A stretch of DNA of 40,724 nucleotides from Prevotellaceae bacterium (GTDB lineage Bacteria; Bacteroidota; Bacteroidia; Bacteroidales; UBA932), in assembly GCA_031276235.1 (NCBI GenBank), contig JAISNL010000050.1, positions 1-40,724 on the forward strand, given 5' to 3'. Shown piece after piece: positions 7,809 to 9,680 of this stretch. Positions within the stretch are counted from its first letter, which is position 1; the number at the start of each line of letters is the position of its first letter. A program made the translations under genes and the position numbers. Below the pieces are notes generated by a model. That model was given only the letters and a program-made list of their open reading frames with translations. It searched no databases and was not told the origin of the DNA.

Positions 7809-8831
7809 TTAAGAAATTTCTCCTCGTAATGATTTTTGAATTTTGTCTTTTACTTCTGTAAAAGTCTTATTATTAGCAAGTAAGAATGATAATTTTGTTA
7901 TTGCCGCTTCAAATGTCATATCTCTTCCACAAATTACTCCTGTTTTTTTGAACAGAATACCTGTTTCATAACGCTCCATTTCTACGCTTCCCACTTGGCA
8001 TTGACTAATGTTTAGCGCTATCAAACCATTATCAATTGCGCGTTTGAATTTTGCTAAAAATTTTTCGGATGTAGGTGTATTTCCCGAACCGAAAGTTTCA
8101 ATTACTATGCCTTTTAATCCTTTCATATTCAAAATATTATCAATGAAATCACAATTTATTCCTGGAAAAATTTTTAATCCTGTGACCGAAGTATCCATTT
8201 CGGTATAAATTTTTAACACTTTATGCGATTTTGGCTTTGCTATTGCAGGCAAATTATATTTGATTTCGACTCCCGATTCTGCCAGAGCAGGATAATTATA
8301 TGAACGAAATGCGTTAAAATTTTCAGCGCTGTGTTTTGTCGTTCTGTTTCCGCGAAACAATTTATTCTCAAAAAATATACAAACTTCTGGAACTATGGGC
8401 TTTCCGCCGCATTGCGATGCTGCTATTTCTATTGCCGACAGAATATTTTCTTTTCCATCGGTACGAATCGAATCTATCGGTAATTGAGAGCCTGTAAAAA
8501 TTATCGGCTTATTCAAATTTTCCAGCATAAAACTCAGTGCAGATGCCGAATATGACATGGTATCCGTGCCGTGCAGTATCACAAATCCATCGTATAAATC
8601 GTAATTGTTTTTTATGATTGTTGCAAGATTTGCCCAGAACGAAGGTTCAACATTTGAAGAGTCTATGGGATTTTTGAATGAATGGGTATCTAATTTATAC
8701 TTGAACTTTTTTAATTCGGGAACTTCTTTTTCTATTTCAGCAAAATCAAACGGAACGAGTGTTCCCGTTTTTTCGTTTTGCTTCATTCCTATTGTGCCGC
8801 CTGTATATATTACGAGTACCGATGTATCCAT
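7809..8831 (-). CDS. ansA: Type I (cytoplasmic) L-asparaginase
   Basis: The 340-residue protein hydrolyses L-asparagine to aspartate and ammonia. It lacks a signal peptide, which fits the cytoplasmic type I class. The two hallmark motifs are present: YTGGTIG with catalytic Thr13, and LHGTDTM (86-92) with the second Thr/Asp pair (Thr89, Asp90). IIFTGSQLP and RTDGKEN (123-129) are also typical. The length matches type I enzymes. A structured RNA candidate with its own promoter and terminator lies upstream on the same strand, ending about 115 bases before the start codon. It is either an independent small RNA or an attenuating leader. A weak promoter-like TACCTTCG near 8860 could serve ansA alone. 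Confidence 0.93.
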   Translation of the reverse strand: MDTSVLVIYTGGTIGMKQNEKTGTLVPFDFAEIEKEVPELKKFKYKLDTHSFKNPIDSSNVEPSFWANLATIIKNNYDLYDGFVILHGTDTMSYSASALSFMLENLNKPIIFTGSQLPIDSIRTDGKENILSAIEIAASQCGGKPIVPEVCIFFENKLFRGNRTTKHSAENFNAFRSYNYPALAESGVEIKYNLPAIAKPKSHKVLKIYTEMDTSVTGLKIFPGINCDFIDNILNMKGLKGIVIETFGSGNTPTSEKFLAKFKRAIDNGLIALNISQCQVGSVEMERYETGILFKKTGVICGRDMTFEAAITKLSFLLANNKTFTEVKDKIQKSLRGEIS

Positions 8832-8838
8832 GCCTTAT

Positions 8839-8852
8839 TACGATATTTATCG
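8839..8852. promoter_or_regulatory. 14-base inverted repeat in the ansA leader
   Basis: ACGATA-TT-TATCGT is a short perfect inverted repeat about 8 bases upstream of the ansA start. It could be an operator or a small leader hairpin near the ribosome entry site. No protein is known to bind it. Confidence 0.3.
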
Positions 8853-8946
8853 TGCGAAGGTATAAATAAATTGTGATTAAAAAATATTTTTTAATGTGAA
8901 AATTATGATAAATATTATTACTTGCAGATTACTAACATATTATAAA

Positions 8947-9060
8947 CAAAATAAAGGGCTGTGTACCCTTTATTTTTTCAATGACATTTGCACAAAGTAT
9001 CTATTTTGGGTAATAGGCTTTTGTGCAAAATTGTCATAACAACATCACCTATGTAAAACC
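8947..9060 (-). ncRNA. Candidate structured small RNA (or ansA leader) with its own promoter and terminator
   Basis: Transcription from the promoter at 9065-9094 would give an RNA of about 114 nt. It begins with about 23 unpaired bases. A long hairpin follows: ATGACA pairs with TGTCAT, a 2-base bulge separates this from a perfect 10-bp stem TTTGCACAAA/TTTGTGCAAA, and an inner 5-bp stem CTATT/AATAG caps it. Then comes a 10-bp terminator stem AAATAAAGGG/CCCTTTATTT with a T-run. There is no credible open reading frame. The rod shape and size suggest a 6S-like regulator of RNA polymerase as one possibility; an attenuator of ansA, which lies downstream on the same strand, is the other. The hairpins are seen directly; the function is inference. 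Confidence 0.65.
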
Positions 9061-9064
9061 GATA

Positions 9065-9094
9065 CAAAGGTAATTACTTTTTTTTGTTTGTCAA
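9065..9094 (-). promoter_or_regulatory. Strong Bacteroidota promoter for the candidate small RNA
   Basis: On the minus strand TTG (9094-9092), exactly 19 bases and TACCTTTG (9072-9065) fit the phylum consensus in sequence and spacing. The predicted start is near 9060. Confidence 0.75.
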
Positions 9095-9680
9095 TAGTTT
9101 TCTACATAAAATTTCAAAAAAAATGTTAAATGTGTAGATTTTTACGTATTTATTCTATTTTAGTCATAAATCAATCAAAAAATACAGGCTAAAAATAACA
9201 ATTATGAATCGATTTTAAAATTATTGCCGCTAAAGCCTTATAAACATTGAAAAAAAATGTAAGTAAAAATTATAAAATGTTTTTCAAGTCAATATGTGAA
9301 TTTGACTAAAATGTATGTTTTCAGATTATTATGATATAATTTCAGGATTGAAATAAATTTGGTATATCCCCCTGCTTTTTTCACATGAAATATTGTTTGC
9401 AAAATTTATCGCCTGCAATTTATTGCTTCGCATATCTTTTTATTGGGAAAAAAATGCAAAATAGAGATATTTGCAAAATCATTAGAGTTTTAAAATATTG
9501 AATTTACAACAATATGTTCACAAAATAATTATATATATTCGTTTGTTTCTGCAATAAGGTTTTGCAAAAATGCAAAAGCTGCAAAAAAAATTATTTAAAA
9601 ATCAACTCAATGAAAAAACTCAAAAATGTTTATACTATTTGATAATTTGAACATTTTGCAAAAGTCTCATAAATTATTAT
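9095..9680. other. Gene-free AT-rich stretch upstream of tRNA-Lys
   Basis: No credible coding sequence on either strand. It contains the 67-base dispersed repeat at 9503-9569 and several short TTTTGCAAAA-type palindromes. One of these extends to an exact 14-base match (TTTTGCAAAAGTCT at 9655-9668) with the flank of the second copy near 29614-29627. Otherwise I see only AT-rich spacer. Confidence 0.6.
9503..9569 (+). repeat. 67-base dispersed repeat, copy A
   Basis: Aligned without gaps to the reverse complement of 29619-29685, 56 of 67 positions match by my count. Conserved blocks are ACAACAAT, CAAAATAATT, TTTGT-TCTG and AATAAGGTTTTGCAAAA. It lies between the small RNA promoter and tRNA-Lys and has no coding capacity. 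Confidence 0.7.

Follow-up and report, generated by a model that had tools for sequence, protein, structure and literature searches.

The minus strand of the window, by which we mean the whole analysed stretch of 40,724 nucleotides, carries at about 9060 to 8946 what is very probably a real stand-alone small RNA gene. While the gene is well supported, its targets are a prediction from sequence: we lean towards a trans-acting RNA which would pair through its 5' end with the leaders of SusC mRNAs, in the manner of GibS and FopS. Most likely it represents a new, uncatalogued family of small RNAs that would work like these two.

A small RNA gene with its own promoter and terminator

The features of the region are listed below; type A denotes the form in the window and type B a diverged paralogue.

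9065..9094, minus: sigma-ABfr-type promoter, exact consensus; both boxes kept and spacer variable in 10 genus genomes
8946..9060, minus: small RNA gene, about 115 nt, type A; from fold and conservation
9038..9060, minus: unpaired 5' region GGUUUUACAUAGGUGAUGUUGUU, invariant among type A copies and almost so in type B
9059-9052, minus: predicted seed for SusC leaders, nt 2-9 GUUUUACA; complement TGTAAAAC in 21 of 105 SusC leaders
8981..9037, minus: rod; from the fold, and from 7 pairs that differ on both sides, with pairing kept, between types A and B
8948..8976, minus: intrinsic terminator, 12-bp stem and 5-nt loop; 1 found against 0.0 expected
8842..8880, minus: ansA's own promoter region, outside the RNA unit; -7-like TACCTTCG in TTTATACCTTCGCAC
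7809..8831, minus: ansA, type I asparaginase, a neighbour outside the RNA unit; TIGR00519 above cut-off
9230..9429, minus: decayed remnant of a yjjG 3' end; from DNA alignment with yjjG 3' ends of relatives

The promoter consists of TTG (9094-9092), a 19-nt spacer and TACCTTTG (9072-9065), an exact match to the Bacteroidetes consensus with the perfect spacing pointed out in an earlier sequence-only reading; six such matches occur in the window against 1.5 expected. G9060 was taken as the approximate, inferred transcript start because conservation begins there, and the resulting transcript of about 115 nt, ending at about 8946, agrees with the 114 nt first proposed. It folds with a minimum free energy of -32.8 kcal/mol, while its shuffles average -19.4 (z -4.1) and 0 of 200 do as well. 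The rod is built from 6 bp (ATGACA/TGTCAT), a 2-nt bulge and 10 bp (TTTGCACAAA/TTTGTGCAAA), and holds an inner 5-bp stem, a loop with ACCC and a small 3/4-nt internal loop, which confirms the 16-bp bulged hairpin with inner stem described before. A short linker separates it from the terminator, whose stem (8976-8948) has 12 bp and not the 10 bp claimed; in relatives this stem is kept and its loop varies. We also considered a pseudoknot of GGUGAU with the rod loop (AUUACC) and dropped it, as it fits type A but not type B.

Conservation and a paralogous type

Of the 11 genomes of this gut Bacteroidales genus, 10 hold the RNA (the window's copy counted), with 91-97% identity over 161 nt; the eleventh genome is only 69% complete. 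Among the eleven type A copies the first 80 nt vary at three positions only, and this body is near-invariant while the promoter spacer, the upstream region and the flanks drift. One genome (G005) has a pair of copies, separated by about 1.5 kb, of which one ends in a different terminator. An exact motif scan of the genome collection gave promoter plus rod in genus members only, among the matches listed, the others listed being chance matches. Genus contigs such as JAIRRX010000047, JAISOH010000006 and JAITOP010000126 were deposited as 'Prevotellaceae bacterium' MAGs, which we take to come from termite guts.

Type B, present in four genus genomes, has the same promoter class and almost the same 5' region, followed by a rod of different sequence but the same shape and by a different terminator:

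L071 2359-2431, plus: type B RNA
L072 4876-4948, minus: type B RNA
L073 467-539, plus: type B RNA
L074 4683-4756, plus: type B RNA

A comparison of the two types for covarying stem pairs, as had been suggested, showed 7 rod pairs kept by changes on both sides (14 compensatory cells). No shuffle reached 7 pairs or 14 cells and slid controls gave 0-2 pairs; it should be noted that the alignment of the types was fitted to the model structure, which somewhat favours the count. The autonomous promoter, the strong conservation, the covarying rod and the RNA's own terminator together support the small RNA that the sequence-only reading had offered as one option.

In the type B copies read, a promoter-like TAnnTTTG lies just after the terminator, and in 4 of 4 genomes the RNA stands about 100-180 nt upstream of a gene for an outer-membrane beta-barrel of about 190-200 aa (NF049866-like). 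A DUF805b RNA (RF02914) was seen at L073 3041-3075 (minus strand), near a DUF805-like gene.

The RNA is independent of ansA

The other option raised at the outset was an attenuator leader that would control ansA, which in the window starts 117 nt past the terminator on the same strand. In all nine relatives, however, yjjG (TIGR02254) precedes the RNA by about 210 nt, the gene on the RNA's other side varies, and ansA is found on other contigs with no RNA upstream; only in the window's genome are the RNA and ansA neighbours. Of yjjG the window retains the remnant at 9230-9429, with no recognisable protein left in it. Further, a promoter-like element of ansA (TATACCTTCGC or a near variant) is kept in 11 of 11 genus genomes, those without the RNA next to ansA included, and in the window it sits between the RNA terminator and the ansA ATG. 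With the RNA at yjjG in relatives and a conserved promoter-like element of ansA's own, synteny largely refutes the attenuator, which we regard as extremely improbable.

Comparison with known RNA families

A covariance-model search of Rfam, 6S included, had been recommended and gave no meaningful match: at gathering cut-offs no family reached threshold at the RNA site, and at E 10 nothing credible appeared in 8840-9200, with no RF04319, RF00013 or RF01685 match. In the whole genome RF00013 had no match and RF01685 none above cut-off, a 19-bit chance match elsewhere being the only one. The idea of a 6S-like rod, and with it of a polymerase mimic, draws on the rod shape and on a length near that of 6S-Flavo (108 positions). 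Besides the covariance-model result, the rod spans only about 57 nt, its interruptions are limited to the 2-nt bulge and the 3/4-nt internal loop in place of the large single-stranded central bubble of 6S type, and the conserved unpaired 5' tail is unlike 6S. That the RNA is a 6S RNA is therefore scarcely credible.

The RNA bears more resemblance to two small RNAs of Bacteroides thetaiotaomicron. FopS is a paralogous family whose 5' seed pairs close to the start codon of SusC mRNA and so blocks its translation (PMC11697453), and GibS uses a conserved, single-stranded seed at its 5' end to pair with translation starts (PMC7366714). In common with FopS (RF04319), our RNA has the promoter class, a conserved 5' end that stays unpaired and contains a G-UUUU-N-CAU core, a hairpin terminator and paralogues within genomes; pairing at SusC translation starts is predicted for it and may be a further likeness. 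FopS, however, measures about 65-70 nt and lacks a rod between seed and terminator, whereas our RNA has about 115 nt with the 16-bp rod and inner stem, and its seed would pair with TGTAAAAC, a leader element different from that of FopS. The repression of susC translation by FopS is antagonised by RbpB. The RNA was not filed as a FopS member as it falls below detection by the FopS model; RF04319 gave nothing above its cut-off (gathering 56 bits) in the 11 genus genomes. GibS, about 145 nt long, is likewise intergenic, with a conserved single-stranded 5' seed, a Rho-independent terminator and translation-start targets (predicted in our case), but it is largely unfolded with metastable hairpins, in contrast to the strong rod seen here, and has another promoter motif (PM2).

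SusC leaders as predicted targets

SusC was chosen as target class because of FopS, and our sample consisted of 105 start regions of SusC/TonB-type genes, drawn from eight genus genomes. Start codons were placed by a simple rule (upstream ATG, then early Lys/Arg), which may have put some leaders in the wrong place. The 8-mer of the RNA with the most complementary SusC leaders is nt 2-9 (GUUUUACA): its complement TGTAAAAC occurs in 21 of the 105, always beginning -21 to -11 from the ATG, while it is found at 0 of 90 other gene starts of the genus and upstream of the ATG in 0 of 80 SusC leaders from ten genera in which the RNA was not detected (Fisher p 5e-6); three of these 80 have it downstream of the ATG. 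A looser site pattern gave 29 of 105 against 0 of 80. Thirteen of the 21 site-bearing leaders have a TAnnTTTG -7 element about 66-85 nt before the ATG, which would place the site inside the mRNA. SusC leaders are paralogous and related by descent, so the 21 cannot be counted as independent. When the 5' end was dinucleotide-shuffled, 21 leaders were reached with the 8-mer in 51 of 1000 trials, and the observed 9-mer count, which is 10, in 25 of 1000. For the window's genome by itself, an energy test gave p 0.015; the best duplexes reach -18 kcal/mol, accessibility not counted, with strong pairing limited to 8-10 bp and a second weak pairing of UUGUU with a GACAAA-like sequence. Long antisense sites (17 nt, at most 3 mismatches) showed no excess in the genomes over a reversed-pattern control.

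Around the predicted transcript start of many genus SusC genes (e.g. L403, L377 and L407) we also observed an inverted repeat, TTGTCCTATAAT-N-ATTATAGGACAA, which is likely an operator or a 5' stem common to that SusC group.

The most probable role of the RNA is in trans, at translation starts, with SusC leaders as the best-supported target class. In the mechanism we propose, the housekeeping Bacteroidetes sigma factor would transcribe about 115 nt up to the RNA's own terminator; rod and terminator would protect and delimit the molecule and the unpaired 5' end would be its working part. Nucleotides 2-9/10 (GUUUUACAU) would pair with (A)UGUAAAAC, some 11-21 nt upstream of the start codon, in the mRNAs of a group of SusC-type outer-membrane importers, and in some leaders nt 19-23 (UUGUU) would add weaker pairing with a GACAAA-like element further upstream. 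Such pairing would keep translation from starting, which is how GibS and FopS work in Bacteroides thetaiotaomicron. The data show the structure of the gene, its conservation and covariation, its independence from ansA and the match to SusC leaders, whereas expression, intracellular pairing, repression and any protein partner of the RNA are inferred.

The 5' region of a stand-alone small RNA might instead serve another partner, be it a different set of mRNAs or an RNA-binding protein which it would titrate, and the SusC match would then be a by-product of common AU-rich leaders. We consider this rather unlikely since the match lies at the extreme 5' end, is position-specific and is absent from the controls. 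On the other hand, the shuffle p is only 0.02-0.05, the 5' conservation extends to nt 23, well past the 9-nt match, no partner was found for the GGUGAUG part, and type B is closely followed by an outer-membrane barrel gene in 4 of 4 genomes.

The description of the transcript as non-coding holds with a reservation. A 19-codon ATG...TGA frame (MTILHKSLLPKIDTLCKCH) does exist in the rod, ending just before the terminator, and might make the RNA a short translated leader or give it a dual function: with a single one-base exception, both types keep, 6 or 7 nt before an AUG, an AGGUGAU whose complement is the extended anti-SD of 16S rRNA. Yet the frame is not kept in the paralogue, where it becomes 9 codons, 19 unrelated codons or one running through the terminator, and 3 of 3 substitutions in the type A body change the peptide. 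AUGACA is, moreover, already accounted for as the rod base. Bacteroidota rarely use SD sequences, and translation of this frame appears improbable to us.

We retain the pairing of a trans-acting RNA with SusC leaders as the likeliest mechanism. Only few trans-acting small RNAs of Bacteroidota are understood, and to our knowledge those tested come from human-gut Bacteroides. If the prediction is true, it would suggest that control of glycan importers by small RNAs is general in Bacteroidales and can be rewired; a concrete pair of seed and site (GUUUUACA/TGTAAAAC) is now open to experiment.

FopS-like RNAs in other genera

AACCTA-type sites, which fit a FopS-like AGGUU seed, occur in 10 of the 80 SusC leaders of other genera against 0 of the 105 in the genus of our RNA. 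We speculate that the RNA may derive from FopS-type small RNAs of other Bacteroidales, with its seed changed together with the targets, a rewiring of the regulon in step, although we would call this doubtful.

When a covariance model built solely from the RNA was applied to 300 genomes of the family, it recovered, besides the genus, four FopS-like RNAs in two other genera. These (L220, L221, L223 and L224) begin with AGUUUUUCAUAGGUUAAG and end in a terminator, and one of them scores 38 bits against RF04319 (gathering 56). The matches of an order-wide mixed model were mostly FopS-like terminator RNAs and in part chance, and were not taken as members of the RNA's family; L219- and L305-type matches were set aside since they had no promoter or resembled coding sequence. 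Two FopS-like terminator RNAs lie in the window's own genome, beginning with AGTTTTTCATAAGTTAAG (L297) and AGTTTTCATAGGTTAAG (L298), and were not found by the Rfam FopS model.

At six loci FopS-like small RNAs lie directly downstream of sigma-54 promoter matches (TGGCAC-N5-TTGC); these are possibly sigma-54-driven FopS relatives outside Bacteroides, as judged from sequence. The FopS-like RNAs are the following:

L220 1501-1580, minus: FopS-like small RNA beside an apparent peptidylprolyl isomerase gene
L221 1501-1579, plus: FopS-like small RNA beside an apparent peptidylprolyl isomerase gene
L223 1501-1580, minus: FopS-like small RNA beside an apparent peptidylprolyl isomerase gene
L224 1501-1575, minus: FopS-like small RNA beside an apparent peptidylprolyl isomerase gene
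L269 1501-1579, minus: FopS-like small RNA with sigma-54 promoter match
L279 1501-1577, plus: FopS-like small RNA with sigma-54 promoter match
G000 C21:238-319 (L297), minus: FopS-like terminator RNA, window's own genome
G000 C164:22019-22089 (L298), minus: FopS-like terminator RNA, window's own genome
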